A DNA stretch of 26,945 bases. Source: a virus. Location: positions 1-26,945 of IMG/VR virus record IMGVR_UViG_3300036785_000433; one strand, given 5' to 3'. How positions within the stretch are numbered: the stretch's first letter is position 1; each line of letters begins with the position of its first letter. Positions 2,466-18,681 of this stretch are shown here, piece after piece. The notes under the pieces were generated by a model. It was given only the letters and a program-made list of their open reading frames with translations. It ran no database searches and was not told where the DNA came from. The position numbers and the translations under genes were made by a program.

Positions 2466-3176
2466 TCAGGGCAGCTGCGGGAACGGATTGCTGAATCGCA
2501 CCGGCGAGGGAACGACGGCGAGCCCGATCCAGGCCCAGCCGAACATGAATCGGGTCTGCGAGCCGTCCGGTTTGATGATCGCGACCGCGATCCCGAGCAT
2601 CGTCGGGGTGAGCCACATCGTGTTGCAAAAAATGGTTTTCGCGACACCATCCTCGATCAGCCAGTTCAGCGCATCGAGCGCATAACGGCGTGCATTGCCC
2701 AGCGTTGCGCGCGTCTTTTTGGCGCGATCGAGCTGCCACAGGTTCGAGCCCAGCGGCTCGGCGTTGTACGGGTCGGCCCACCAGCCGCGGCGATCGGTCG
2801 TGCCGTCCGTCGGCGTGAAATCGGGGGTTGCGAGGACATCCGAGAACAGCGAGACCAAACAGGCGGTTTCGAGATCCTGTCCGGTCTCGATGTCGCCCTG
2901 CGCCAGGCCCCAATCGCCGAGCGCGTTGGTGTTGTCCCACAGGATGCGGATGTCGCCACCATTGCCGCCTTGCGGCAGCGGATTGGCGGGCATGTCCCAG
3001 ACCGACGCGCCGCCATCCCAGACCGACGCACCGCCATCCCAGATCGATGCAGCACTGCTATCCCAAACCGATACACCACCGCCATTCCAGACCGATGCAC
3101 CGCGATCCCAAGTGCTCGGCGTGGTAGGGACCGATCCCGCGGGCGCGTCGAGCGGCGGTTCGAGCCACCCGGTCAT
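2466..3176 (-). CDS. Baseplate protein, Mu gp46-like, with N-terminal S-x-W-D repeats
   Basis: This is a 236-residue protein. The C-terminal two-thirds match Mu gp46: 'DIRILWDN', 'DLETACLVSLFSDVLATPDF', 'DRRGWWADPYNAEPLGSNLW', then 'NARRYALDALNWLIEDGVAK'. These fit the pattern 'DLxTAVLISLFTDRRA...DRRGWWGD...GSRLWLL...A-x-x-(Y)-A-x-(E/D)-AL-x-WL-(I/L)-(D/E)-(D)-G-V-A'. Unlike Mu, the N-terminus (about residues 21-63) has six heptads of the form S-x-W-D-x-G-A: STWDRGA, SVWNGGG, SVWDSSA, SIWDGGA, SVWDGGA, SVWDMPA. These are close in sequence to repeats in the tail terminator-like protein. The start overlaps the spike gene stop (ATGA). The stop is followed by the 96-bp repeat spacer. Confidence 0.9.
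   Translation of the reverse strand: MTGWLEPPLDAPAGSVPTTPSTWDRGASVWNGGGVSVWDSSAASIWDGGASVWDGGASVWDMPANPLPQGGNGGDIRILWDNTNALGDWGLAQGDIETGQDLETACLVSLFSDVLATPDFTPTDGTTDRRGWWADPYNAEPLGSNLWQLDRAKKTRATLGNARRYALDALNWLIEDGVAKTIFCNTMWLTPTMLGIAVAIIKPDGSQTRFMFGWAWIGLAVVPSPVRFSNPFPQLP
2988..3116 (-). repeat. S-x-W-D heptad repeat array in the gp46-like protein
   Basis: Six units of about 21 bp encode S-x-W-D-x-G-A type heptads. On the plus strand they appear as 'atcccagaccgacgcaccgcc' and close variants, with two units nearly identical, so some recent duplication is likely. The same motif, though with different codons, ends the tail terminator-like gene (17444-17578). Confidence 0.88.
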
Positions 3177-4723
3177 GGCGGCGGCCCTCCAGCCGCGAAC
3201 CCCTCAAGCGCTGCGACGCGGGCCTGCAGCGCTTCAAAGTCGGCGAGCAGGGGATAGGTCATCTGCACACCGTTGACGAATGGCGCAGCCTGCAAGTTGA
3301 TTGTTCCCGGCCCGCAATCGCCGCCGCTAGACGGGGCACCGATGACGAGCCCTTGCGCGATCGTCAGCCGCAGCGTCAGCTGGGTTCCGCCGATTGCGGT
3401 GGTGTTTAAGAGAATGGCGGTGCCTTGTTGGGTATCGGAGAAGGTCTCCAAGGCCTGCACGTTCATTGTTGCGCGGTTGCCGGTCGAATACCCGGTCCCC
3501 GGCGGGGGTGTGCCATAGCCGCGGAAAGCGATTCCACCGAGCGCATCCCCCGACACCGTCGAGGCAAGCGCCGTACCCAGGCCGCCGCGCGCCGAGCGCA
3601 GCGTGATGTTGGAGCTCGACGTGGTTGTGCCGGAAAAGCCGTCGATCTGCATCCGCGCGATTGCGCCATCGGACCCGGCGAGCTGTAGAGCCGTCCCGGC
3701 CAACGGTGCCGGCGGCGCCACCGTGTTGAGGTTGACGGTCAGAGCACCGCTCAGCGTGCCGCCGGCCAGCGGCAATGCAGCGGTGGTCAGCGACAAGGTG
3801 GCGGGAGTGCCGGCGGTCAGGGTCAACCCGGAGCCGACATTCCAATTTGGTCCTTGCGGCCCCTGTGCTCCGGTGGCGCCCTGCGGTCCCTGTGGGCCGG
3901 TCGTGCCTTGAGGCCCGGTTAGCCCTTGCGGCCCGATCAGCGAGGTTCCCGGTGTCGGCCATGCCGTTGTTTTCGGGCCGAACATGCTGTAGGGCCCGGT
4001 ATCGATATAAAAATCGCCGCTGTTGCCGATGGTGCCGGCAGGCGATCCGCTACCGTGCAGGACGGAGTTGCCGGCGGCGCCGGTCGCGCCCTGCGGCCCG
4101 GCTGGCCCGGCTGGCCCGGCTGGCCCTGGCGGCCCAGCGCCGCCACTGCCGCCGCCGATCGGGTTGCCATTTTGAAAAAATCCGCCCGAGGCGTCGATCT
4201 TGCCGTGCGCCTTGACATCCTGGTTGATAGTAAGATCCTGGCTGACGGTGGTGTTTGGCGTCGTTAAATTGATTTGGTCGCTGCCGTTGATGGTCGCGTT
4301 TTTCGTCGAGACGTTAAAAGCGTCCGTCGCTTTCGTGGTCGCGGTTTTGGTCGAGATTGCGACATTCTGCTGCCGCTGCATCGAGATCGTGTCGCCCTCG
4401 TCAGTGTAGAGCGAGATCTCGCCGGGCTTCTGGTTCTTGAGCCGGCTCTTTTGTTGGCCGGTCGCGATGACGACTGGGTTTGATCGGTCGCCCATCACGA
4501 AAAGCGCGGTCGCATCGGTGCCGACCGGCGCATGCGAGGCCAGCCCGTAAATCTGCATGACGCCGACCGAATCGAGGATCTCGGGGGTGTTTTGGACGCG
4601 AAGCTGCACCTTGTGGATGACGTCGGTGTCGTCGGTCGCCAGGATCTTGGTCGGCGCGACCATCATCCGTATGCGGCGATAGAGCCGGTCGATCTGTGTC
4701 TGCAGTGCCCACCCGTCGCTCAT
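3173..4723 (-). CDS. Baseplate spike (Mu gp45/gpV-like) fused to collagen-like and fibre domains
   Basis: This is a 516-residue protein. Residues 1-190 are a gp45-type baseplate assembly and spike domain: IDRLYRRIRMMVAPTKI, then VQLRVQNTPEILDSVGVMQIYGLAS and GLASHAPVGTDATALFVMGDRS, followed by a beta-helical stalk (EISLYTDEGDTISMQR, VSTKNATINGSDQINLTTPN). The Mu protein ends near there, but here the chain continues. Two collagen-like G-x-y tracts follow (about 196-218 and 264-292), around a 'GDFYIDTGPYSMFGPK' hinge. A beta-rich fibre region with a 'LPLAGGTLSGALTVN' motif (about 317-331) comes next. It ends in a short coiled coil ('LLADFEALQARVAALEG'). Collagen-like tracts trimerise, which suits a spike that is itself a trimer. 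The overlaps are ATGA on both sides. Confidence 0.92.
   Translation of the reverse strand: MSDGWALQTQIDRLYRRIRMMVAPTKILATDDTDVIHKVQLRVQNTPEILDSVGVMQIYGLASHAPVGTDATALFVMGDRSNPVVIATGQQKSRLKNQKPGEISLYTDEGDTISMQRQQNVAISTKTATTKATDAFNVSTKNATINGSDQINLTTPNTTVSQDLTINQDVKAHGKIDASGGFFQNGNPIGGGSGGAGPPGPAGPAGPAGPQGATGAAGNSVLHGSGSPAGTIGNSGDFYIDTGPYSMFGPKTTAWPTPGTSLIGPQGLTGPQGTTGPQGPQGATGAQGPQGPNWNVGSGLTLTAGTPATLSLTTAALPLAGGTLSGALTVNLNTVAPPAPLAGTALQLAGSDGAIARMQIDGFSGTTTSSSNITLRSARGGLGTALASTVSGDALGGIAFRGYGTPPPGTGYSTGNRATMNVQALETFSDTQQGTAILLNTTAIGGTQLTLRLTIAQGLVIGAPSSGGDCGPGTINLQAAPFVNGVQMTYPLLADFEALQARVAALEGFAAGGPPP
4088..4138 (-). repeat. Short collagen-like coding repeats (Gly-Pro-Ala-rich)
   Basis: The plus-strand run of 'ggcccggct' units encodes GPP, GPA, GPA, GPA and GPQ triplets. 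A second, less regular tract lies at about 3848-3932 (GPQ, GLT, GPQ, GTT...). Nine-base periodicity makes this segment prone to length changes by slippage. Confidence 0.85.
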
Positions 4724-7312: not shown

Positions 7313-9757
7313 TTAGGCGGCGGCGAGCTGCTGCTGCTCGATCCGCGGCGGTGCCACGTTGACGTCGCCCGCACCCTTGGCGGCGACCGTCACACCCGGC
7401 GGCGGGTTGCGGTGCGTCACGGTGACGTCGACGGAGCCGGAGACCGGCGGGCCGCCGGTGACTTGCATCGGCGCACCTTCCGCCTTTGGATTGAGGGCAG
7501 CGACGTCCTTGCGCAGCTCGCCAATCTCAAAATGCATCGGGTCTTTGCGCCCCTCAAAGGTGCCACCCCATTTCAGCCCCCATTTGGACGCCAGATCGCC
7601 GACATCGGCCGGCAGATCTGTGCTCGTGCTGCCGAGCGGATTGGTTTCTGGGTTGAGATCGATTGCGGTGCCCCACGCGTGCGCTGACCAGCCGGTGCCG
7701 CCACGGATCTTTCGCGGGTTGTAGCCGCCGCCGGACTGCAAGCCGGGATATTCTTTGTAAACATCGTTGATAAAGCCCTGGAACTGGTCAGCCGCGTCTT
7801 TGTTGACTTGCCACTTGGCGCCATTTGGCGCGGTGACCGTTGTCAGATTTTTGCCGGCTTCCTCGGGCGTACCGAAGGCGCCGGTGCGCGCGGCAAAATT
7901 AGCCTGCAGCGAGGCTTGGCTGGGCACATTCTGATTAGCTGGTGTGGGAACATTCTGATCAGGCAGGGTCTTGATGATCGAATTTAACGTGTCGGCGTAA
8001 CCTTTATCGGGGGTATAGCCGCCGGCAACCAGACCGGCGACCTGCTCTTCCGGTGTCTTGCCGGCTCGTGCTTGCGGATATCGTTTGTTGATCAGGTCGC
8101 CATACGCCTGGAATGACTCCTCCATCGAGCCATAGCTGCGCAGATTACCGGCTCCGCCGATGCCGAAATAGTTTTGACCGGGCGCATGGGCACCCCAGCC
8201 ACTCTCGGTTGCCGCCTGCGCCAGGACAACACGCGGATCGAGTCCAGTCTGGGCGGCGACTTGCTGCGCGAGCGGCCATGCTTTTTTGAGGAACTCGGCC
8301 TTATCACCGCTGAACGTCGTTGGACCAGCTCCTGGCGCTATTCTGCCAACGCCGCCATAGAACGGCGTCGCCTCGCCCGAGGGCCGCGGCGGACCGGCCG
8401 GGCCACTCGGCGCTGCGGGCGGGGGATTGGTCGGGCGTCCCGCCCGCCAGTCTTCGAGATTCTTTCCCACTACACCAGGCAGGCTCTTGAGCGTCTCCCA
8501 GCTCTCTTTAGCGGCGTTGATCAGGTCGGGCCAATGCCGCCATGTCTCCTCGATCAGGAGCAACACACCGACGACCGCGCCGAGCGTGCCCAAGAGCCCC
8601 ACGCCGGTGATCCCGGCGCCGGCGCTGATTGCTCCGACGCTGCCGAGCGCGGTGATGACCTGAGCGATCGAGGTCGCGATGCCGACCGCCCATTTGACGG
8701 CGAACAGGGCGGCAATGCCCTCGGCGACGTCCTTGACCGTGTCGAGATGAGTAGTCAGCCAAACGAGAGCGTCTCCGACGTCCTTTATCCCGCCCTCGAC
8801 CTTGTCCCAATCGATACCCTTGATCCAATCCGCAAAGCCAGTGATCAGGCGATTGATCGCGGCGGTGATCTGCGGCTCATGGGTCCGCACGAATTCGGCC
8901 AGCTGGTTGATAAACGGCGTCAGCGCCGTTGCCAGCGTCGTGCCGATCTGCTGCTGAAGATGATCGAAGGAGGTTTCCAGGGCGCCTATAGCTTGCTTGT
9001 AGCGCTGCTGCGCGGCGATCTGGTCGGCGGTCAATTCTGTATATTTCGCCGCTTCGGCGTTGAGCCGCTTATAGGTGTCGGCGAGGCTCTCGCCCGGCTG
9101 TTTGGCGAGCCTGAGAGTCTCGGTCAGGTCAAACAGCGCTTTGCCGCCGAGCCCGACTGCAGCCTTCATCCGGTCGAACGAACCCGGAATGTTGTCGAGT
9201 GCTTGGAGCACCTGGGGCAGCACATCAGCGGTTACACGCAATTTGCCGGTCAGAGGATCGATCACATCGATGCCGAACTTCTTAAACCATGCGTATGTCT
9301 GCGCGTTGCCGGTGGCCGCGTCCCCTAGGGACTGGGTCAATTCCTTGAGTGACTCGGTCATGTTGTCGACTGAGCCCCCGGCGAGCCTAGCCAGATCCTG
9401 GAGCTGCTGCAGCGTTTGCGGGGTGGTGCCGATCTCGTCGGCAGTGCGCTGCAGTGTCAGGCCGAATTGCCCCCAGGTCTCGACCAGCTTGGCGATTCCG
9501 GCGATCGATGCCGCACTCGTCAGAGCCCCAAGCACGGGCACGATGCGGATCATCGAGCTGAATGCGTCGAGCGCAGTGCGGGCGATATTCTTGAACCCGT
9601 CGGCGATCTTGCCGAGCCCGGAGAGATCGACGAATTTCTGGACCGCGCGCGCCTGGCGCTCCATCGGTGCGCGCATTTGCTCGATGCGTTTGTTGATCGC
9701 CTCGATCTGCTTGGTCGCCTGGTCGACGACGGAGAAGGTTACACTGTAGCCCGCCAT
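7313..9757 (-). CDS. Tape measure protein with GH73 glucosaminidase and M15 peptidase domains
   Basis: This is an 814-residue tape measure protein, which sets tail length and may enter the cell envelope at ejection. Residues 1-340 are helical with coiled-coil and amphipathic parts. About 344-403 are strongly hydrophobic, Gly/Ala/Val-rich segments suited to membrane insertion. A Pro-rich linker (about 441-465) leads to two wall-cutting domains. The first (about 486-600) is GH73-like: VVLAQAATESGWGAHAPGQN has the likely catalytic Glu518, followed by NYFGIGG. The second (about 640-745) is an M15/VanY-type peptidase: SAHAWGTAIDLN gives zinc ligands H693 and D700, and DPMHFE gives H742. A short beta-type tail follows. 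The start is the ATG after the chaperone's long-form stop; the stop directly precedes the next start. Carrying two hydrolases is notable for a Mu-type tail. Confidence 0.94.
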   Translation of the reverse strand: MAGYSVTFSVVDQATKQIEAINKRIEQMRAPMERQARAVQKFVDLSGLGKIADGFKNIARTALDAFSSMIRIVPVLGALTSAASIAGIAKLVETWGQFGLTLQRTADEIGTTPQTLQQLQDLARLAGGSVDNMTESLKELTQSLGDAATGNAQTYAWFKKFGIDVIDPLTGKLRVTADVLPQVLQALDNIPGSFDRMKAAVGLGGKALFDLTETLRLAKQPGESLADTYKRLNAEAAKYTELTADQIAAQQRYKQAIGALETSFDHLQQQIGTTLATALTPFINQLAEFVRTHEPQITAAINRLITGFADWIKGIDWDKVEGGIKDVGDALVWLTTHLDTVKDVAEGIAALFAVKWAVGIATSIAQVITALGSVGAISAGAGITGVGLLGTLGAVVGVLLLIEETWRHWPDLINAAKESWETLKSLPGVVGKNLEDWRAGRPTNPPPAAPSGPAGPPRPSGEATPFYGGVGRIAPGAGPTTFSGDKAEFLKKAWPLAQQVAAQTGLDPRVVLAQAATESGWGAHAPGQNYFGIGGAGNLRSYGSMEESFQAYGDLINKRYPQARAGKTPEEQVAGLVAGGYTPDKGYADTLNSIIKTLPDQNVPTPANQNVPSQASLQANFAARTGAFGTPEEAGKNLTTVTAPNGAKWQVNKDAADQFQGFINDVYKEYPGLQSGGGYNPRKIRGGTGWSAHAWGTAIDLNPETNPLGSTSTDLPADVGDLASKWGLKWGGTFEGRKDPMHFEIGELRKDVAALNPKAEGAPMQVTGGPPVSGSVDVTVTHRNPPPGVTVAAKGAGDVNVAPPRIEQQQLAAA

Positions 9758-10606: not shown

Positions 10607-12088
10607 TCACGATTTGCGGAATTGCAGCAGGATGGCGATCTGGCGCAGCTGTTGGACCAGGTCGACCGGAGCGAGCACTTTGACGAGCCCCTGACCGGCA
10701 TTCTCGACGACGATGTTCTGCGCGAAGATCGTGCTGTTCTGCACATAGCCCGCCGCCTCGAGCGCTCGATATTCGCTGATCGTCGAGGCCTTGATCATTA
10801 GCGCGTTGACGCAATTCGAGCCGGCCAGTATCTGCGTCTGATCGCTGACCAGCTTCTTGCGGGCGTATCGGGTCAAGAGATAGTTCGCCAGATCGCGCGC
10901 CACGAACATCAAGCCGTACATCGTCTCGACATCGAGATAACTGTCGTCGTTGGCGCCTGCGGCATTCTTTTGATAGGTCGTCGCCATCCGCTCGATCGTG
11001 ACCGTACCGTCGTCGCCGACGCGGTAGGTCGACATGCCGTCGTAGAGCAGCGTGTTGCGCTCGCCCAAGGTCCAGCGCGACGGGATCGGCGGCGCCTTGA
11101 GCTGGGTGCCGATATACTGCAATGGCAGACCGGGATCGACGCGCAATGAGGCGGCACAATAGGCGCCGATCTGCGAGGCCCAGACCCAGGGCGGATCGGG
11201 CGAATCGTTGTAGGCGATGATCGACATGTGCTGATCGTTGAGCCCTTGGCCGAACGCCGTGCACACGCCGAGCGTGCCTTCGAACGCGCTGAAGGCGCCG
11301 CCGTAGAGCATTTCGCTCCAATTCCATCGACCCGTTGCATCCGACAGAAAGTTCTTCATCGCTGTCAAATTCGCGGTGTCGGTGTACGGGGTGACGATGA
11401 AGTCAAAAGTCTGATCGGAGAGATTGGCGAGCCCCGTGGTGATGTCGGGATTGGCGGTGCCGCCGGCCATCGGCGTGATTGTCACGGTGACGCCGGGCGG
11501 CAGGCTTTCGCCGCCGGGCAGGCCCAGATAATTCATCCGCAGATCGATGCTGTTACCGGAGGCACCCTTGTTGATCGCCGTCAGGTCGAGTTCGGCGGGG
11601 GTCGTGCTGTTGACGATCGATGTGACGGCGAGATCGGGATTGGCGACGATTGCCGTGTGCATATTGGTCGCCATCATCGCGGCGGTGTCGGCGGCATAGA
11701 CCGCCGCCTGCACACGGATGCCGCCGATATAGAGGTTGAGCGTCCCGGCGGCGGTTGCCGGTCCGACGAAAAGGACTTTGCCGGTCGCCACGATCGCTGC
11801 AACATTGTCGGCGTAGGGCAATAACCACAGATCGCCGAAGTTGTCGCCGTAGAGGTAATTCTGTGCCATCTGCGCCAGCATCGAGCCGCGCCCGCAGGCC
11901 GTCTGGATCTGGGTGAGCGACTGGACCTCGAACGGCTGCAACGGCGTTGCGGCACCGGCCGTCGCAATCTGCCCGAGCACCAGCGAGCGCTGAAACGTCG
12001 TCGCGGTGTTCGCCTGGCTCGGGTCCATCTCGACATAGACGCCGGGAACCCGGTTGCTGTCGGGGTAATAGGTAAAGTTGATCGCCAT
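10607..12088 (-). CDS. Tail sheath protein (Mu gpL-like)
   Basis: This 493-residue protein is close to the length of Mu gpL. It starts MAINFTYYPDSNRVPGVYVE, the family's 'F-x-x-(I/Y)-P-x-x-x-R-x-PGxYxE' opening. Next come SLVLGQIATAGAATP, DNFGDLWLLPYAD and an Ig-like insertion (about 95-205). The core follows with FDFIVTPYTD, RWNWSEMLYGGAFSAFEGTLG and NDSPDPPWVWASQIGAYCAA. The C-terminal linker part is YLLTRYARKKLVSDQTQIL and VLAPVDLVQQLRQIAILLQF. It polymerises around the inner tube and contracts to drive it through the host envelope. It lies directly before the tube gene, as in all contractile tails of this type. Confidence 0.95.
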   Translation of the reverse strand: MAINFTYYPDSNRVPGVYVEMDPSQANTATTFQRSLVLGQIATAGAATPLQPFEVQSLTQIQTACGRGSMLAQMAQNYLYGDNFGDLWLLPYADNVAAIVATGKVLFVGPATAAGTLNLYIGGIRVQAAVYAADTAAMMATNMHTAIVANPDLAVTSIVNSTTPAELDLTAINKGASGNSIDLRMNYLGLPGGESLPPGVTVTITPMAGGTANPDITTGLANLSDQTFDFIVTPYTDTANLTAMKNFLSDATGRWNWSEMLYGGAFSAFEGTLGVCTAFGQGLNDQHMSIIAYNDSPDPPWVWASQIGAYCAASLRVDPGLPLQYIGTQLKAPPIPSRWTLGERNTLLYDGMSTYRVGDDGTVTIERMATTYQKNAAGANDDSYLDVETMYGLMFVARDLANYLLTRYARKKLVSDQTQILAGSNCVNALMIKASTISEYRALEAAGYVQNSTIFAQNIVVENAGQGLVKVLAPVDLVQQLRQIAILLQFRKS

Positions 12089-12273
12089 CAGGCGGCACTC
12101 CCCTCGGGCCGGCGCCGCTGCGGCGCCTCGGCGGTGACGACCTCGACGTCGCCATCACGGATGCGGCGGCGCCAATATTGGTTGTCCGGCACCTCGCGGC
12201 CCTCGGCTGGCAGCAGCTCGTAGGGTGGTGTCGGGTGGCGCACGGCGCGACCCGCGGCGGGCTTCACTTTCAT
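12088..12273 (-). CDS. DUF2635 / Mu gp38-like small tail protein
   Basis: This is a 61-residue basic protein. MKVKPAAGRAVRHP, then ELLPAEGREVPDNQYWRRR and LRDGDV-like IRDGDVEVV, matches the DUF2635 pattern 'KPAxGRxVRxP...LPxxGxxVPxxxxWxRRxxDGDV'. Proteins of this family lie just before the sheath gene in Mu and relatives, as here. Their role in tail assembly is not established. Translation starts after a near-perfect AGGAGG, and the stop overlaps the sheath start (TGATG). Confidence 0.9.
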   Translation of the reverse strand: MKVKPAAGRAVRHPTPPYELLPAEGREVPDNQYWRRRIRDGDVEVVTAEAPQRRRPEGSAA

Positions 12274-12278
12274 CCGTT

Positions 12279-12284
12279 CCTCCT
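12279..12284 (-). promoter_or_regulatory. Strong Shine-Dalgarno for the tail module
   Basis: The minus strand reads AAAGGAGGAACGG directly before ATG 12273. AGGAGG (12284-12279) lies 5 nt from the start. It is the best ribosome site in the window and stands at the boundary between the accessory cassette and the Mu-like tail genes, so it may reset translation after the cassette. Confidence 0.75.
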
Positions 12285-12289
12285 TTTAA

Positions 12290-12460
12290 CTACTGATGCG
12301 CTCGGTCATCGTTGGCCGCCGACAACAGCTCGATCAGCCAGTCGTACCACGGCCGAGATTGCGAATAGTCGAGCCGCTGCGACCAATACAAGCAGGCGGC
12401 AATGGCTATCTCGATCATGCACGCGTAGTAAATCTCATTCATCGCGACCCATTTCTCCAT
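12290..12460 (-). CDS. 56-residue single-pass membrane-type small protein
   Basis: A 56-codon frame begins at ATG 12460, overlapping the previous stop as TGATG, and ends at TAG 12292-12290. The peptide starts MEKWVAMNEIYY. It has a hydrophobic stretch at about residues 11-26 (YYACMIEIAIAACLYW) and then a polar tail with aromatic residues (RPWYDWLIELL) and a charged end. The hydrophobic run could be one membrane helix, though it contains a Glu. It is coupled to the propeller-like gene before it and followed by a very strong ribosome site for the DUF2635 gene. It could be a small membrane partner of the exported cassette or a lysis-related protein; the sequence does not decide. Confidence 0.6.
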   Translation of the reverse strand: MEKWVAMNEIYYACMIEIAIAACLYWSQRLDYSQSRPWYDWLIELLSAANDDRAHQ

Positions 12461-13752
12461 CACGAGATCGTCACCGGCACCATGGTCAGCGTATAAGACC
12501 CAGTACTGTGAGGAGCCTGGTCATTGTAGTCGCCACAGCAGGTAATCATCGCCGTTGCTCCACCGTCCACCTGTAATGATTTCGGCATGATGTTAGGATT
12601 GTAAAGTCCGCGCCCCCCCGTTCCCACCGGGGCATTCCACACTTTCGACGCGCCCGCTAACAGGGTCCACGGCCCCCACAGTTTGGTCGACTGCCATATA
12701 TCCCACTGCGTCGTCGAAGAGTCCTCGACCAGATTATTTACAATCGCCGGATACCACCACTGGATGTGTATATAGCATCCGAACTTCGGGAGATACTGCA
12801 CGCCGTTGCTGCTGACCTGGAGCGAGTTCCCGCTGGGACTTGGGTTGATCAGCGGCTGCGCGCTCGCCCACCCGGCAGACCCCGATGGTGTCCAGGCAGC
12901 AGGCTGCGAACCGTCGCCACCCTGATAATAGCTCCAGTCTGCGGCATTGAGATTGGGCAGATTAGCAATCGACACCCGGCCCAAAAACAACTTGCTACCG
13001 TTGTTCCAGAAGCCATCGTTCGAGACCGCATAGACAAATTGGTCATTGCCATCGACAGGGGTGACCGTACCGGGATAAGGAGAGTCCTTGCCGTATTGCA
13101 CGAACCAGCAGGTGTTGTTGACGTTCCCGGCAAACATCGGCGCGGCATAAGGCTGCGCCGTGGAGGGCGGCTGCGGCGTCCAGGCCCCAGTCGCGCCTGC
13201 AACAGTAGCTTTGATGATCTGCATGTTCGCCGACGACTGCTTGCACGCAATCCCCGTGCCGCCAGGGGTGCCGTACTTCTGCCGGGCCGCCGTGCCATAG
13301 AGCACGCCATTGACCGAGATCAGCCCCATCGCCTTATAGGCTACATTGCTGCCGTCCGAGCCAGATTGGGAGGCCGTGCCCCAAGCCTGCATCTTGTTGA
13401 CGCTGCTGCCGGTAAACGTTGTGGTATAGTCCGACAGCAAGCTGACTTCGAGGTTCGACGAAGGTGCGGCGTCCTGCCACCCGAACGAGTCGTCGTTAAC
13501 CGCATAGATCTTATCGTCACTGGCCCAGGTGTTGGCCCACACGTCCGAGCTGATGTAGTTAGTCGAATATCCGCCTGGTCTAGTGTTGGACTTAGACACA
13601 GTGCCGTAGTTCACCGTGGTGAAATAGCCGGGCAGCACCGGAGATGCCATGCCTCCACCAAGTCTCGACACCCGGCCGAGCGACGGCGTTGCCACGAGCA
13701 ACCCCCCGGCTCCGCCGAGCGCCACCCGTCTAGTCAGGCTCCTGCGTTCCAT
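12460..13752 (-). CDS. Tat-signal beta-propeller-like protein (DUF4185-like)
   Basis: This is a 430-residue protein that begins MERRSLTRRVALGGAGGLLV, with a twin-arginine-type signal: T-R-R-V-A-L followed by a weakly hydrophobic run. The mature part has repeated blade-like sections with Trp, Asp and Gly, including DDKIYAVNDDSFGW, NDQFVYAVSNDGFWNNG, LFLGRVSIANLPNLNAADW, WDIWQSTKLWGPWTLL and the end GLYNPNIMPKSLQVDGG with MITCCGDY. This layout resembles DUF4185-type, glycoside hydrolase-like five-bladed propellers. No activity can be assigned. Five cysteines are present. The start has no strong Shine-Dalgarno and lies 10 nt after the previous stop; the open frame extends further upstream, but the Tat-like N-terminus supports 13752. 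Its stop overlaps the next ORF (TGATG). A polysaccharide-binding or cleaving role at the cell surface is the best guess. Confidence 0.75.
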   Translation of the reverse strand: MERRSLTRRVALGGAGGLLVATPSLGRVSRLGGGMASPVLPGYFTTVNYGTVSKSNTRPGGYSTNYISSDVWANTWASDDKIYAVNDDSFGWQDAAPSSNLEVSLLSDYTTTFTGSSVNKMQAWGTASQSGSDGSNVAYKAMGLISVNGVLYGTAARQKYGTPGGTGIACKQSSANMQIIKATVAGATGAWTPQPPSTAQPYAAPMFAGNVNNTCWFVQYGKDSPYPGTVTPVDGNDQFVYAVSNDGFWNNGSKLFLGRVSIANLPNLNAADWSYYQGGDGSQPAAWTPSGSAGWASAQPLINPSPSGNSLQVSSNGVQYLPKFGCYIHIQWWYPAIVNNLVEDSSTTQWDIWQSTKLWGPWTLLAGASKVWNAPVGTGGRGLYNPNIMPKSLQVDGGATAMITCCGDYNDQAPHSTGSYTLTMVPVTIS

Positions 13753-13762
13753 GATGAATACA

Positions 13763-14869
13763 TCATTTATAGGTGGCGATCGCTGTAATAGGGGTCTGGT
13801 TGGCGTTTGCGGTCCAAGTCGGGTTGGCCAGCGCCGCCGTGGTCTGGATCTGATACGCAAAAGATCCGCCGTAGCTCGTCGACGAACTAACATAAGGCAC
13901 GGTGTCGGTTATGATGAAAGGCGCGGTGATGCTGTTGATCGTGCCGGCATTTGATGCAAACTGCGTAACGGCGACAACCAACTGGTTCGCCGACCCCGGC
14001 GTCGCCGTGGCATTGGGCCAGGTCGTCGCACCTGGCGCCAGAATTGGGGTTGTATTGGTTTGATCCAGTCCAGGCGTAGCGCTTCCGCCACTGAATGCAG
14101 CGACAAAGAGCGCACAATAATTACCAGTGAACGTGAAGGTATGCGATGCCCCAACGGTCGGACTGTAAACATGGTATACAAGGATCTTGTAACCGCCCCC
14201 GCTGGGATCGTAGGAAATATCCTGTGTCCAGGTAGGATTGCCGGCGCCGCCATTGACGCTGTCGGAGAGAATGTTGGTGCCGGTCGATGTAGCGTAATTC
14301 GCCACGTAGACGACGATCAGCTTGGCCCCGACCGTGCTTATCGCGGTGCTCGGGCCGCACGCAGCTGTCCCGGTCCCGTGGACTGCCGTGTGTGCGTTCG
14401 GAACCAAGACAAAAGGCCCGGCAGCGGCGGTGCTGGTCAATACGACAACCTGGGTGAATGGCGAGCCGGTGGCACCGGCTTGAGTCGCAATCAGATGCAC
14501 GCAATAGGTGCCCGGCGCCAGGTTCGCTACTGCGGTCTGCAGATTACCGCTGACAATCTGGAAGTTCGATGCCAGGACAGAAACAGCCCCTGAAAAACAA
14601 CTATCTCCAGACACGGCATTTGATAGGGTTGTCGTCCCGGTAAACGCCGGAGCTGCCGGGCTCATCGTCACGGCGACCGCGGCAATCGTCGTCGCCGCCG
14701 CCGCGGTGCTGCTAAAGGACGCACTCGACGGAGCAACCGACGCGATGCTTTGCCCGCCCCCGGCAGGCTGCTTCCCCACACCGACCGGCAGAAACTGCGC
14801 GCGAAGCGACAAACCGAAGACAATCGCCCCGATCAGCACCGCATAGCACAGGAAATGACGGAACTTCAT
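13763..14869 (-). CDS. Exported Ig-like, beta-rich protein with signal or anchor
   Basis: This is a 368-residue protein. Residues 1-24 (MKFRHFL then a hydrophobic run to SLRAQ) look like a signal peptide or a signal anchor; the cleavage site is not as clear as in the neighbours. Residues about 60-146 resemble an Ig or cadherin-like repeat: FTGTTTLSNAVSGDSCFSGA, then LAPGTYCVHLIATQAG and SPFTQVVVLT. The rest (about 160-368) is a beta-sandwich type domain with 'KLIVVYVANYAT', 'WTQDISYDPSGGGYKILVYH' and 'HTFTFTGNYCALFVAAFSGG', the layout of phage-borne adhesin-like domains. There are four cysteines in the predicted mature part. The start overlaps the preceding stop by one base (TGATG). A binding role at a cell surface is likely but not shown. 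A longer frame to 15523 is a shadow through the upstream gene. Confidence 0.75.
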   Translation of the reverse strand: MKFRHFLCYAVLIGAIVFGLSLRAQFLPVGVGKQPAGGGQSIASVAPSSASFSSTAAAATTIAAVAVTMSPAAPAFTGTTTLSNAVSGDSCFSGAVSVLASNFQIVSGNLQTAVANLAPGTYCVHLIATQAGATGSPFTQVVVLTSTAAAGPFVLVPNAHTAVHGTGTAACGPSTAISTVGAKLIVVYVANYATSTGTNILSDSVNGGAGNPTWTQDISYDPSGGGYKILVYHVYSPTVGASHTFTFTGNYCALFVAAFSGGSATPGLDQTNTTPILAPGATTWPNATATPGSANQLVVAVTQFASNAGTINSITAPFIITDTVPYVSSSTSYGGSFAYQIQTTAALANPTWTANANQTPITAIATYK

Positions 14870-15408
14870 CAGCCGCAATCCCCGCCCACATCGACCACCC
14901 CCGCAGCGCCGCTGGTCTCCTGCCGTATCCAGATGATCGAATACTGCGCCCTGGTCCGTACCGTGGTGCAGGCCGAATGGACAGTGCCGGTGCCGGCGGC
15001 AATGGTCGCCAGCCCGGCGCCGACCGCGACCACCGCGACGTTGCATCCCACCGGCCAGCTGCTCAGGATCGACAGCGTGCCCGCCGATGCGCTGTTGTAC
15101 CCGATCGTCCCGCCGCACATCGCCGTCGCCGTCGGGTCGAGATTGCCAGTCGCCGTAACCGCTGCCGGGGATGGCGGAAATACGTTGGCGTTGAACGTGT
15201 TTGTGCCGGTCCAGGTGTTGGTTCCGCCGGTCCCGCCGGTCGGAGCGACCCCGCCATCCTGAACGCCAAGCCCATCGCTGGTCGCAGTGACCATATGCCC
15301 CGAGACAAATGGCGGCGATAGCATATAGGGCGCCCTGGTGTCGGCGGCATAGGCGATGACCGCAGCCAACGCGGACACGCAGACGGCGCCGAGTAGGAAC
15401 TGTTTCAT
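14869..15408 (-). CDS. Exported protein of unknown function with Sec signal peptide
   Basis: This is a 179-residue protein. The start at 15408 has GAGG 7 nt upstream and gives MKQFLLGAVCVSALAAVIAY followed by an A-x-A site at residues 19-21, a clear signal peptide. The mature part starts DTRAPYMLSPPFVSGHMV, then has GTGGTNTWTGTNTFNANVF, a Thr/Asn-Gly pattern often seen in phage fibre linkers, and then a compact domain with four cysteines (AMCGG, VGCNV, SACTT, GDCG). The mix of a fibre-like linker and a secretion signal is odd. The domain near the end, with TLSILSSWPVGCNVAVV and ARAQ-like strands, resembles small beta domains at fibre tips but I cannot name it. The stop overlaps the next start (TGATG). 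Confidence 0.72.
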   Translation of the reverse strand: MKQFLLGAVCVSALAAVIAYAADTRAPYMLSPPFVSGHMVTATSDGLGVQDGGVAPTGGTGGTNTWTGTNTFNANVFPPSPAAVTATGNLDPTATAMCGGTIGYNSASAGTLSILSSWPVGCNVAVVAVGAGLATIAAGTGTVHSACTTVRTRAQYSIIWIRQETSGAAGVVDVGGDCG

Positions 15409-15416
15409 TCGGAACC

Positions 15417-15620
15417 TCAATGGCAAGCGATGATGATGCCGTTAGTGACCGCGCCAGCGATGACGATTCCGCTAGTGGTGGCAGCTCCGGCGATGATGTT
15501 TCCCTGCGGGCATGTCGGACCAACCGCAGCGCCGGTCGGCATCAGCAGGATGAACGCGTCAGCCGACATCGACACCAGCAGCACCCCCATCAAAAGAGCT
15601 AGCGAAACGAGACGTTGCAT
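15417..15620 (-). CDS. Short exported peptide with Sec signal
   Basis: This is a 67-residue protein. Residues 1-22 (MQR, a run of Leu/Val/Met, then SADA) form a strong signal peptide with an A-x-A site at A20-D21-A22. The mature part is only about 45 residues, Gly/Ala/Ile-rich with a repeated 'I(I/V)AGA' pattern, and has two cysteines (PTCPQ and the final ACH). The start overlaps the end of the previous gene by 22 nt and is preceded by AGGG. The longer open frame starting at 15671 lies within the upstream gene. No family is recognised. Its place between two other signal-bearing proteins suggests they work as a set. Confidence 0.65.
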   Translation of the reverse strand: MQRLVSLALLMGVLLVSMSADAFILLMPTGAAVGPTCPQGNIIAGAATTSGIVIAGAVTNGIIIACH

Positions 15621-16627
15621 CGCCCTTGCCCTGTTGTGCCAGGAGACGGCGTGACCTTGGCCCCGATCCAATAATTAGCCGGTACCGCGACAGCTGTCGT
15701 CAGCAAATTCAGGCTCTCGATCCCCGCCGTCGCCGTCAGCAAGAAGGGATTCCCCATCAGCGTCCCAGCGTTGATCGGCCCGCTTGCCGTCTGCTGATAG
15801 AATTGCATCGAGCCGGCACTCCCCGCGATATCATTCTCACACGAGATAGCGTAGACAATACTGACCGACAGAGTGCGCATAACACCAAAACCATTACCCG
15901 CCACGCTTAGGTCCATACCCGGCAGCCACGCAAACGATTGAACTCGCACCGGACCCATCGGGACGGTCAGCGCGTTGGCTCCGGCGGTGACGACAAGGGA
16001 TTGCATGTCGGCCGGGAACGTCACCGCGGCATTGGCCGCACCGCCGCCGACCTGCCCCGCGTTGATCGCGTCGCCCGAGCCCGCAGCGGGCGTCAACGTC
16101 GCCTGCACCCCCACCGTAGCGAGGTTTATGCCACCCTGATTAGGCAGCGTGTTCACCGCGGGGAACGTCAAATTGCATCCCGCGGCGATGCACACAAATG
16201 TTTGTCCGTATGTCCACTCGCCACCGGTCACCGGGTGACTGCCGGAAACGACCGTGATCCCGCCGGCGACCCCGCCGAGCACAAACCCGGTGCCGGCCGT
16301 GTTGACCTGCAGACACTGGTATCCGGTCAGCTCGTTGCCACCCAGCGCGACAAGTCCGCTGGGCACCTGGCGCTGAACTGGCAAGGCGGGCAGCTTCCCG
16401 TCCACAGACACCGTGGCAGGGCCGGTGTTCGGTGTGGTGAAATTGGCGCAAACGATGTCCATCGCGGTGTTGTTGAACCCGCCGCCGGTCGTGATGGTCT
16501 GCGCGTTCGCGGTGCCGCCGACGGCGGTCGCCATGAACAGATGAGGCCGGCCGGCGACCGCCTGGGCTTGGGCAAGATCGGGCGCGATTAAAGACAGCGC
16601 CAGAGCGATAGCAAATACGAGTTTCAT
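15599..16627 (-). CDS. Exported protein of unknown function with Sec signal peptide
   Basis: This is a 342-residue protein whose first 21-23 residues form a textbook Sec signal: basic MK, a hydrophobic run (LVFAIALALSLIA) and a cleavage site near AQA. The mature part is Gly/Ala/Thr/Val-rich and beta-type. It contains six cysteines (VCAN, QCLQ, VCIA, GCNL, SCEN, RCNV), an even number that suits disulfide bonds in the periplasm or outside the cell. I do not recognise a family. The start at 16627 overlaps the preceding stop as ATGA, so it is part of the late operon although it looks exported. An in-frame start at 16642 is inside the upstream gene and would spoil the signal. Possible roles include a surface protein made during infection, a lysogenic conversion factor, or a tail adhesin that passes through the periplasm. 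These are inferences. Confidence 0.75.
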   Translation of the reverse strand: MKLVFAIALALSLIAPDLAQAQAVAGRPHLFMATAVGGTANAQTITTGGGFNNTAMDIVCANFTTPNTGPATVSVDGKLPALPVQRQVPSGLVALGGNELTGYQCLQVNTAGTGFVLGGVAGGITVVSGSHPVTGGEWTYGQTFVCIAAGCNLTFPAVNTLPNQGGINLATVGVQATLTPAAGSGDAINAGQVGGGAANAAVTFPADMQSLVVTAGANALTVPMGPVRVQSFAWLPGMDLSVAGNGFGVMRTLSVSIVYAISCENDIAGSAGSMQFYQQTASGPINAGTLMGNPFLLTATAGIESLNLLTTAVAVPANYWIGAKVTPSPGTTGQGRCNVSFR

Positions 16628-17439
16628 GGCACAGTGTACCACTGAGTAGCAGCTACCGATTCGAAGTAAGCGGTCGTGTTGACGGGAACGGTAATATACG
16701 TGCCGACCGCTTGCGCATTGATTGCCGCCGTCGCCGCCGGATAAACATTAAGTGAGTTGGCTCCACTGTTGCGGACCTTACAAATCTGGCCGACCGTTGC
16801 GGGGGCCGGGAGCGCACAGCCGTTACCCACAGCCGCAACCGTGGTGACCTCGTTGAAATTGCTGGGAAGCGGCGCCCAAGGCGCCGTTGCTGTGGCAGTT
16901 ATGTTGCGGGTTACGGTATCTGCGCCGGCGCCGCCTGGGGTACCGTTTGCCGCCGCGGTGACCCGGCCGGTCCCGTCGACGGTGATATTTGCGTTCTGCC
17001 AGGCGCCGGCAACACCCGCGATCGGCGTAAGCGCAGGGGCGGCATCGCTGCGCATGTAGGTAGTGAGCGTGCCATTGATTGCAGTGGCACCGATCGTGTT
17101 GGTCGGGTTGGCCCCCGTTGCACCACCTGGCGCGGTACCGTTGCCCGCGGCGGTGATGCGGCCGGTTCCGTCGACGGTTATGTTCGCGTTCTGCCAAGCC
17201 CCCGCTACACCGGCGATCGGAGCCAAAGCGGGGGCCGCATCGCTGCGCATGTAGGTCGTCAAGGTGCCGGGGTGCGCCGTGCCGTCGATCGTCTGGGTCG
17301 GGCTCCCTGGTGTGCCGCCACCCGGCGGCGTTGCCTGCAGCTGGCTGATCTCGTTGGCGGCGATCTGGAAATTGTTGCGCACCGAAGCCGTCGTCGGGCT
17401 ACCCGTTATTGGAATAGTCGGATCAATTGCGGAAGGCAT
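16624..17439 (-). CDS. Fibre-like virion protein with 65-residue tandem repeat
   Basis: This is a 271-residue Ala/Thr/Gly-rich protein. Its start MPSAIDPTIPITGSPTTASV and the helix RNNFQIAANEISQLQA resemble the N-terminus of many Rhizobiales phage tail proteins. A 65-residue unit occurs once in full and once in part, with the block TLTTYMRSDAAPAL then PIAGVAGAWQNANITVDGTG repeated almost exactly; nucleotide spacing is 195 bp. The C-terminus (about 188-271) is a beta-rich domain with 'ATVGQICKVRNSGANSLNVY' and 'VNTTAYFESVAATQWYTVP', a pattern common in phage proteins that form trimeric beta structures. I chose ATG 17439 rather than 17487 because it follows the upstream stop by 1 nt and matches the homologous N-terminus. 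It probably takes part in an adsorption or decoration structure. The stop overlaps the next start (ATGA). Confidence 0.75.
   Translation of the reverse strand: MPSAIDPTIPITGSPTTASVRNNFQIAANEISQLQATPPGGGTPGSPTQTIDGTAHPGTLTTYMRSDAAPALAPIAGVAGAWQNANITVDGTGRITAAGNGTAPGGATGANPTNTIGATAINGTLTTYMRSDAAPALTPIAGVAGAWQNANITVDGTGRVTAAANGTPGGAGADTVTRNITATATAPWAPLPSNFNEVTTVAAVGNGCALPAPATVGQICKVRNSGANSLNVYPAATAAINAQAVGTYITVPVNTTAYFESVAATQWYTVP
16955..17306 (-). repeat. Two tandem 195-bp coding repeats
   Basis: The block containing 'gcatcgctgcgcatgtaggt' occurs at 17042 and again at 17237 on the plus strand, giving a period of 195 bp (65 codons). Much of each unit is also shared, including the 'gcgttctgccaagc/gcgttctgccaggc' region. 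The second copy in translation order is shortened at its C-terminal end. Confidence 0.85.
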
Positions 17440-17440
17440 T

Positions 17441-18142
17441 TCAGAGGGTATCCCACAGCGATTGAGCGTTGTCCCAGAGCGAGGCACCGGAGTCCCAAGT
17501 GCTTCCCGCTACAGCGACCCCTTGATCCCAGGTCGACAAACCGGCGTCCCAGAGCGATTGGCCGCCATCCCAAATGCTACCTTCTTGGGTGTGGATCTTG
17601 ATGATCGCCGCCGGCACGTCGACCAGCATGTCCTGCGGCGGCACCTTCCAGATGTCGACCTCGATCGATTCGAGCGGAACGGATGGCGGCTGCCACCCGT
17701 CGGTGTCATCGAGCACCGTGTTGAGCGCGAATTCGAACTGGTAGAAGAGCCGGGCGCGATCGAGATCGAGCGGGCGGGCGCCGCTGAACCAATAGCCCTG
17801 CTGGTTGACAGTGAGGCACATGGCCGGCGGCCAGTTGAGCAGCGCATGGTTTAGCGCCACCTGGATGTCCTCGGTGCTCATAGCCGGCGCCTGGCCGCGG
17901 CGGTCGCCTGTCGCGTCGAGCTCGACGACAACGCCGATCGTTTTGCGTACGAACTGGTAGAGCCCGACCATGTTGTGGTTGCCGTCCGATTCCTGGTCGA
18001 GCAGGATCACATAGGCGGCGGGCAGCGGCATGTTGGCGTTATAGTTCTGCAATCCCTGGGTGAACTGGGCGGCGCCGGCAACCCGGCCGCCAAACGGCGG
18101 GCAATAGGCGCGCAGTTGTTGGATCGTGGCGTCGATGATCAG
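17441..18142 (-). CDS. Tail terminator-like protein with C-terminal S-x-W-D heptad repeats
   Basis: The reading frame gives 233 residues if it begins at the CTG at 18142, which overlaps the gp10-like stop as CTGA. The first in-frame conventional start is a TTG at 18052. That later start would remove 'IIDATIQQLRAYCPPFGGRV', which looks like the real N-terminus of this family, so CTG is preferred. The body has LPLPAAYVILLDQESDG, a YQFVRKTIGVVVELDA strand and a DRARLFYQFEFALNTVL segment, as in terminator-type proteins that cap the tail tube and join it to the head. After the normal domain there are six heptads (residues about 189-233), each of the form S-x-W-D-x-G-x, such as SIWDGGQ and SLWDAGL. 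Similar repeats open the gp46-like protein 14 kb away. The function of the repeats is unknown. The next gene starts 1 nt after the stop. Confidence 0.82.
   Translation of the reverse strand: MIIDATIQQLRAYCPPFGGRVAGAAQFTQGLQNYNANMPLPAAYVILLDQESDGNHNMVGLYQFVRKTIGVVVELDATGDRRGQAPAMSTEDIQVALNHALLNWPPAMCLTVNQQGYWFSGARPLDLDRARLFYQFEFALNTVLDDTDGWQPPSVPLESIEVDIWKVPPQDMLVDVPAAIIKIHTQEGSIWDGGQSLWDAGLSTWDQGVAVAGSTWDSGASLWDNAQSLWDTL
17444..17578 (-). repeat. S-x-W-D heptad repeat array in the tail terminator-like protein
   Basis: Six repeats of about 21 bp encode SIWDGGQ, SLWDAGL, STWDQGV, STWDSGA, SLWDNAQ and SLWDTL, with a 4-residue insert (AVAG) in the middle. On the plus strand this shows as recurring 'tcccag' or 'tcccaa' blocks. 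Codons vary between units, so selection is on the protein pattern rather than recent DNA duplication. Confidence 0.85.
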
Positions 18143-18681
18143 GACTTGGTTTCTTTCCAGGTCAGGCCGTCATCAAACGCCTTGTTCACCCGGCGTTGCA
18201 GATTAGCCGCTTCCTGTTGCATGACGCGGTCGAGGTGCGGGCGCGGCTGTAGCACGCGCGAGGCGAAGACGCTGCGCGCCCGGTGCCGGCGCGCGAGCAC
18301 CCGTTGACGGGCGCCTCCCCCAGGGTTCCCGCCACCCCGCGCGCCGGCTTCGAGGAACAGAGCGTAAAACGCGCGCTCGCGCACGGCGAAACCGTTGCCC
18401 TCCGGGTAGACGTAGGTACGCAGCGACGAGCGCAGCGTGCCGGAGATGCGCACCGGCGGTTCGCCCGGCGCCGAGGCGCGATAGGTGCCAGGCCGGTAGT
18501 TGCCGCGATAGGCCGAGCCGCCGCCGCCGCGATAGGTACGCCCGCCGCCGGTGCTGCGGTTGATCAGGCGTCCGGTCTTTGTCTTGATGTCGTTGCCGGC
18601 GCTGCGCATCAGCGCGCGCAATTCTTTCTTGTCGAGCGCCACCTCGCCCCAGCTGGTGATGCTCAGCTTGAGCTGGCTCAC
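18139..18681 (-). CDS. Neck / tail-completion protein, HK97 gp10 family
   Basis: This is a 180-residue protein of the HK97 gp10-like group. Key signs are the early helix 'LDKKELRALMRSAGNDIKTK' (about 16-35), the 'SAPGEPPVRISGTLRSSL' segment, the familiar 'G-x-P-P-x-x-x-T-G-x-L-x-x-S' motif, and 'FYALFLEAGARGGGNPGGGARQR' in the region where family members have 'Y-A-x-x-x-E-x-G-T'. A Gly/Arg/Tyr-rich loop at about 43-68 is expanded. It is expected to sit at the head-tail junction and help tail joining. The start is GTG directly after the adaptor's TAA. The stop TGA overlaps the putative CTG start of the tail terminator gene. Confidence 0.85.
   Translation of the reverse strand: MSQLKLSITSWGEVALDKKELRALMRSAGNDIKTKTGRLINRSTGGGRTYRGGGGSAYRGNYRPGTYRASAPGEPPVRISGTLRSSLRTYVYPEGNGFAVRERAFYALFLEAGARGGGNPGGGARQRVLARRHRARSVFASRVLQPRPHLDRVMQQEAANLQRRVNKAFDDGLTWKETKS

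Follow-up and report, generated by a model that had tools for sequence, protein, structure and literature searches.

A cassette of phage genes with export leaders that appears to travel with a fibre-like gene

Introduction

Why would a tailed soil phage carry five consecutive genes with N-terminal export signals amid its structural genes, when the standard teaching has tailed virions assembled wholly in the cytoplasm? The question is raised by a 26,945-base fragment in IMG/VR (record IMGVR_UViG_3300036785_000433; the whole fragment is called the window below), in which every late gene lies on the minus strand. The five genes, E1 to E5, span positions 12460-16627 of that strand and follow R271, a gene for a leaderless fibre-like protein. 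An earlier, sequence-only reading of the window had pointed to them and had suggested a surface-modifying, superinfection-blocking or adhesion-related system. The literature that we searched, mostly without subscription papers, offered no explanation for fibre-like phage proteins with export signals. Here we describe the evidence that E1-E5 are exported and that they belong to a module built around a fibre gene, and we weigh what the exported proteins might do.

Results

The run of five leader-bearing genes is real: all of the open reading frames are present with their leaders, as first described, and the run exceeds the background. Leaders were called with a rule-based predictor (a net positive charge in the n-region, a hydrophobic core free of charged residues, a cleavage site) together with comparative evidence. 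Applied to 1138 structural-region genes from 60 related proviruses or phages, the rule fires on 18 (1.6%) and never on two adjacent ones; in the cassette it fires on four or five consecutive genes. Under this rule E1-E4 have the charged n-region, hydrophobic core and signal peptidase I site of general secretory (Sec) leaders, and their hydrophobic-leader scores (2.7-2.9) are above that of every complete backbone protein of the window. E1 (15599-16627; 342 residues) has the site AQA followed by Q, with a predicted mature start at QAVAGRPHLF. The micro-protein E2 (15417-15620; 67 residues) has the site ADA and a predicted mature start at FILLMPTG, E3 (14869-15408) has AYA, and E4 (13763-14869; 368 residues) has a weaker site, LRA. 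The leader of E5 (12460-13752) resembles those of the twin-arginine (Tat) pathway; its RRSLTRRVAL matches the twin-arginine consensus only in part, and there is no clean AXA site.

Export of E1-E5 out of the cytoplasm is well supported by sequence comparison, because unrelated leaders stand on homologous mature domains and because the mature cysteines appear to be paired. Homologues of E5 have a Tat-like leader in the window and in two related loci, L010 and L012 (RRSLTRRVAL or RRSITRRAAL). In L005 and L159 an unrelated Sec leader takes its place, and the L163 homologue is leaderless. The common E4 domains of L008 and L014 lie behind two different leaders, and the leaders of E3 and E4 swap against their domains. 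Eight contigs agree in SADAFILLMPT of E2 but differ in the hydrophobic core, both its sequence and its length, and the rest of the protein is variable. The charge of the n-region, the hydrophobic core and the AxA-Q site are retained despite sequence drift. Misassigned start codons were considered as a source of the leaders and rejected: the E1 start lies inside the R271 stop (CCATGAAAC), the next Met is far downstream, and E3 and E4 are similarly coupled.

The mature parts of E1-E5 contain 6, 2, 4, 4 and 5 cysteines, in agreement with the earlier count, and the six of E1 are invariant. Cysteines make up 1.94 per 100 residues in mature exported proteins versus 0.62 in backbone genes. Even counts were found in 22 of 26 exported soil-phage proteins (similar copies removed; the cleavage site of L159_a adjusted by eye) and in 8 of 8 complete, distinct leader-bearing fibres from the Burkholderiaceae loci and Bcep phages described below. 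When these are pooled, 30 of 34 exported proteins have even counts. The corresponding figures are 14 of 35 for leaderless R or fibre genes (Fisher p = 4e-5) and 101 of 221 for control genes without a leader (p = 2e-6); against the 62% even rate of controls with two or more cysteines, the binomial p is 6e-4. By form of E5, the Sec-exported proteins have 8 and 6 cysteines, the Tat-like 5 and 1, and the leaderless one 3. The even counts and the enrichment fit disulfide formation by the cassette proteins outside the cytoplasm. The disulfide network of Milano concerns tail-sheath contraction, not exported fibres, and we found nothing on export in that account (PMC10811340).

The sequence-only reading had argued that the genes are made late with the structural genes, and this is supported because they are tightly coupled to those genes and because there is no above-chance promoter or terminator in the cassette. 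R271 and E1 overlap by 4 bp (ATGA), E1 and E2 by 22 bp, E3 and E4 by 1 bp (TGATG), and E5 and the closing gene, S57, by 1-4 bp; gaps of 8 bp and 10 bp lie between E2 and E3 and between E4 and E5. Within 11900-18200, promoter-like sites (2 versus 1.8 expected) and terminator-like sites (3 versus 4.9 expected) are not above chance. A promoter and terminator of its own, as in a lysogenic-conversion moron of the Lom/Cor type, did not emerge from this search, and the cassette genes overlap the structural operon. S57 (12290-12463, minus strand; 56-57 residues; start at GTG 12463 or at ATG 12460 or 12442) has a hydrophobic stretch. It had been proposed as a 56-residue membrane-type protein and is real, with an 88% identical homologue in L006/L012. 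In L005 the slot after E5 holds a different membrane-type reading frame of 40 residues (L005:11972-12094).

The cassette is present in seven other metagenomic contigs from four metagenomes, always after R. Across those contigs E1 is 71-77% identical and is conserved over its whole length. L011 is 87-98% identical to the window over the majority of its structural genes, but identity drops to 75% for E1 and 35% for E5. In L012 (70 kb, with a different sheath), L013 and L010, unrelated structural genes flank the cassette, and the first 90 nucleotides of the E2 leader are 89-97% identical between unrelated phage backbones. One cassette-bearing record contains an integrase. From these comparisons, the block appears to be a horizontally exchanged module that moves between unrelated phages as a unit. 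Searches with tblastn for the E1, E3, E5, L136 and L094 proteins found no match in 50,697 phage records, and the E1 profile had no match in genome contigs.

Within the module, E2-E4 keep the leader and a short segment while the remainder is exchanged between relatives, which is the pattern of fibres and tailspikes (conserved N-terminus, variable C-terminal domains). In E3 the leader and short conserved segment precede one exchangeable domain of virion type; the protein matches phrog_18179, a virion structural protein (4.1e-05; 1.6e-5 for the L013 copy). It was the only protein of the window's cassette to match, and PHROG and profile searches linked none of E1, E2, E4 and E5 to virion fibre proteins. 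E4 has exchangeable C-terminal domains as well. We suspect that the conserved N-terminal segment of E2-E4 attaches to the virion. The E5 slot is taken in other loci by different carbohydrate-active-looking proteins, with weak matches to GH43-like proteins in L008 and to CBM4_9 in L014. Upstream of the cassette in L013, an unrelated phage, one gene (L013:6015-7826) combines its own Sec leader with a pectate-lyase-type tailspike (PF12708, 3e-8; also tailspike PHROG matches). This spike gene comes directly after a gene with a Trp-Asp repeat.

R271 (16624-17439, minus strand) has a conserved N-terminal domain (MPSAIDPTIPITGSPTTASVRNNFQIAANEI), internal repeats and a conserved C-terminal domain. 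The gene before it encodes the tail terminator or neck protein (17441-18052, minus strand; Pfam Phage_tail_terminator 3.7e-10; phrog_209), the last ~45 residues of which are Trp-Asp repeats (SIWDGGQSLWDAGLSTWDQG...SLWDTL). A search for the N-terminal domain of R271 turned up 79 viral loci. In 43 of 61 such loci the gene before R has three or more Trp-Asp motifs, a feature of 3 among 440 other upstream genes. An Azospirillum provirus has this Trp-Asp tail at the end of its last baseplate gene, and the next gene, a fibre, opens with the R domain. The Trp-Asp tail and the R N-terminal domain look like an undescribed fibre-docking pair that occurs in several virion backbones. Given the tail on the terminator in the window, such a pair would place the fibre on the neck protein. 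The pairing is general among the 79 loci (for example L083, L094, L136 and L137). A baseplate gp45-like protein of the window (2466-3176, minus strand) starts with Trp-Asp repeats (STWDRGASVWNGGGVSVWDSS), and its gene is directly downstream of a 516-residue fibre gene (3173-4723); these repeats are possibly a second fibre-docking site.

The phenomenon is wider than the window, and the exported fibre-type design recurs in unrelated phages. Beyond the cassette family, leader-bearing genes lie straight after R in L094, L136, L153 and L159. L153, a phage unrelated to that family, has four of them in succession after an R-type gene (L153:5852-9075; 272, 286, 246 and 263 residues). The predicted mature starts in the E1 slot of the window and of these phages read QAVAGRP, QSAAMRP, QTAMRP and QTALRP. 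Two control genes on which the leader rule fires, from Trinickia and Caballeronia proviruses, encode a Sec leader fused to a standard tail-fibre N-terminal domain, and relatives of these genes were found in 13 of 300 Burkholderiaceae genomes searched. Most of the relatives have differing leaders and then a conserved AxA followed by QFxPGQxLTAAQLN. Several come directly after the last baseplate gene, and about a dozen provirus loci place this fibre domain right at the cleavage site. Four long-sequenced, virulent Burkholderia phages, Bcep781, Bcep43, Bcep1 and BcepNY3, show this architecture too, in a gene whose annotation is tail fibre or tail spike and which the records of the first three describe as 'possible tail fiber; possible signal peptide domain'. 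The predicted mature N-terminus of the Bcep781 fibre is QFAPGQVLTAAQLNSQF. Like the cassette genes, Bcep781 gp49 and its relatives (Naesvirus) are expressed from a late operon, here that of the tail, and combine a Sec-type leader with a conserved mature N-terminal domain, a divergent C-terminal part and an even number of mature cysteines (14; 4). Unlike the cassette, the group has one such gene, not five, its docking domain is QFxPGQxLTAAQLN, and the gene is located after baseplate genes and not at the terminator/sheath junction; the R/Trp-Asp pair was not seen there.

E5 resembles GH183/DUF4185 endo-arabinanases and is predicted to be a glycan-active beta-propeller. Its AlphaFold model is of low confidence (predicted local distance difference test, pLDDT, 38.6). 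With this model, the top Foldseek matches belong to GH183, a family with a five-bladed beta-propeller fold: among solved structures AraH2, an endo-D-arabinofuranase of mycobacterial origin (8an0; E = 1.2e-4), and among viral proteins the lysin of Gordonia phage GMA6 (E = 1.9e-5). The DUF4185 domain of the GMA6 lysin is an experimentally tested endo-D-arabinanase, and the catalytic Asp pair of GH183 is spaced by 17-18 residues (PMC10115798). Asp70 and Asp88 have this spacing and are retained without exception in five E5 homologues; Asp-x17-Asp is common to E5 and GMA6 (ATDLG...FGDTW in GMA6). By eye, the GMA6 segment TDLGAMIEAPNGKLVAVFGD aligns with E5 SDVWANTWASDDKIYAVNDD without gaps, although an automatic alignment placed it differently. 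With hhalign a later stretch of the two proteins is collinear, at an E of only 0.018. We call E5 GH183-like and do not file it as a member because the Pfam DUF4185 profile (PF13810) does not match it at E values up to 10. AraH2 and the GMA6 lysin domain thus resemble E5 in the catalytic-type Asp pair and, by the low-confidence model, in fold; E5 differs in standing alone behind an export leader. The E5 profile had no match in 385 genomes of an Azospirillum strain's class, in a search run without a positive control, and PDB sequence searches with E1 and E5 gave nothing useful. Of the adhesive domains that had been suggested, the beta-propeller gains support from E5, through a weak model; Ig-like domains are supported neither by any profile nor by the poor model of E1 (pLDDT 46.7).

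The late genes of the window run from a lambda-type terminase and portal through capsid, connectors and tail terminator to a Mu/SfV-type contractile tail. In 55 related proviruses and phages the spacing between the tail terminator and DUF2635/sheath is -11 to 205 bp (median about 9). It is 5.2 kb in the window and 4.9 kb in L011, a close backbone relative. The inserted block consists, in order, of R271, E1, E2, E3, E4, E5 and S57; its right edge is the DUF2635 gene (12088-12273, minus strand; PF10948 5.7e-19), the usual neighbour of the tail terminator. Misbinned bacterial genes were rejected as the source of the exported genes because the flanks run from terminase to baseplate. An HNH-endonuclease-like-looking gene (L005:12233-12781) separates DUF2635 from the sheath gene in L005, the closest backbone relative of the window, and a transposase adjoins the terminator gene in phiKM1 (L015:10025-11287). 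The terminator/sheath junction seems to be prone to insertions. The core relatives of the window are phages of Acetobacteraceae, Burkholderiaceae and Enterobacterales, and the Rhizobiales host supposed earlier is unsupported. The C-terminal half of the tape-measure protein (7313-9757, minus strand) matches endolysin PHROGs (phrog_3513, 1e-18; phrog_1768), and by these matches the protein carries a fused, predicted peptidoglycan-hydrolase part.

Discussion

The genes, their leaders, the late coupling, co-transfer, modularity, cysteine signature and linkage to a putative fibre-docking pair are established at the level of sequence. The individual kinds of parts are already known; what is new is their combination, in a multi-gene fibre module that moves as a set and bears export leaders. 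We postulate that R271 is a virion fibre that is made in the cytoplasm and docked through the Trp-Asp tail of the preceding neck protein, and that E1-E5 are its exported partners, synthesised late. E1-E4 would leave by Sec and E5 by Tat, signal peptidase would cleave the leaders, disulfides would then form in the periplasm, and the proteins would encounter virions upon cell lysis. The conserved mature N-termini would most likely attach the proteins to the virion fibre system, and the variable C-terminal domains could bind or cut host surface polysaccharide, E5 perhaps as a GH183-like enzyme. We lean, at slightly less than even confidence, to the view that E1-E5 are receptor-binding or depolymerase modules that mature in the periplasm and are released or attached to virions at lysis.

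The fibre-type domains and the glycan-active folds in the exported set (GH183-like E5, the weak GH43-like and CBM4_9 matches, and the PF12708 spike of L013) favour the adhesion or surface-related role in the earlier proposal; superinfection blocking has no positive evidence. We also give the use of these proteins in the virion more weight than the sequence-only reading did, since genes of this architecture are annotated as tail fibres, and lie where tail-fibre genes lie, in the Bcep781 group and in Burkholderiaceae proviruses; attachment itself is what we infer.

Several points weigh against virion attachment after periplasmic maturation. Assembly of tailed phages is believed to be cytoplasmic, and periplasmic fibres could therefore reach the particles only after lysis, when both are diluted. 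Many of the loci come from one metagenome group, and the contigs are not all independent. The structure models of E5 and E1 are of low confidence, and E5 combines an unclean cleavage site with an odd number of mature cysteines. The tail fibre of 7-7-1, which has been detected in virions, has no leader, and because it is leaderless 7-7-1 neither proves nor refutes leader-bearing fibres in virions.

An explanation that is nearly as good, and that we likewise hold to be less likely than not, is that the proteins are free lectins or depolymerases, exported late, that act on exopolysaccharide in the envelope or medium and never join the virion. They could aid the spread of progeny or keep virions off debris. 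The export evidence is the same for this explanation, and the enzyme-like members (E5, GH43-like and PF12708) are consistent with it. It also has a parallel in WceF of Pantoea stewartii, a Tat-exported exopolysaccharide depolymerase with a tailspike fold, encoded in a bacterial exopolysaccharide operon and not by a phage late gene (PMC7949094). It leaves unexplained why classic fibre-docking domains should sit right at the mature N-terminus, why the genes of Bcep781 and the Burkholderiaceae proviruses lie where a tail-fibre gene is expected, and why the linkage to R is invariable. Display on the surface of the dying cell or lysogen, for superinfection exclusion or receptor masking, seems improbable to us. 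Lambda lom does encode an exported product between tail-tip and tail-fibre genes (PMC12309495), as phi80-HK022 Cor is encoded amid late tail genes, and the integrase in one record suits a lysogen function. However, Lom and Cor are each encoded by a lone gene, for an outer-membrane protein or a lipoprotein that functions in the lysogen, whereas the cassette is multi-gene, has fibre-type domains and is co-transferred with a fibre. It has no above-chance internal promoter or terminator, no outer-membrane barrel and no lipobox, its N-conserved, C-variable mosaic is of the receptor-binding type, and the Bcep781-type phages are virulent. A lysogen-only moron and superinfection exclusion are accordingly the less likely roles. 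We give still less credence to the idea that the hydrophobic N-termini are assembly or anchoring devices in the cytoplasm or virion and not export signals. To our knowledge, every tailed-phage fibre that has been studied well is assembled in the cytoplasm, and some leaders (E3 and E4 types) are without a perfect AXA site, as this idea would allow. It fits poorly with the preservation of leader features under drift, with the finding that one protein can have either a Tat-like or a Sec leader, and with the cysteine pairing.

A broader form of the reading we favour is that, in one class of tailed phages, virions are finished only after leaving the cytoplasm. Receptor-binding fibres and depolymerases would be exported, then cleaved and disulfide-bonded in the periplasm, and would join otherwise complete particles no earlier than lysis, through short mature N-terminal motifs; the cassette would spread between unrelated phages as a unit. 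We regard this as a serious possibility that is less likely than not.

If virions are completed after lysis, this would be a new assembly route, and it would explain the 'possible signal peptide' remark on the tail-fibre records of the Bcep781 group. Because phages of that group are cultured, the question is directly testable. The cassette also adds candidate exported polysaccharide-degrading enzymes. If the export signals work and the cysteines are paired, then either part of virion assembly takes place in the periplasm of these phages' hosts, or the phages have a secretome with which they ready the environment for the infection that follows.

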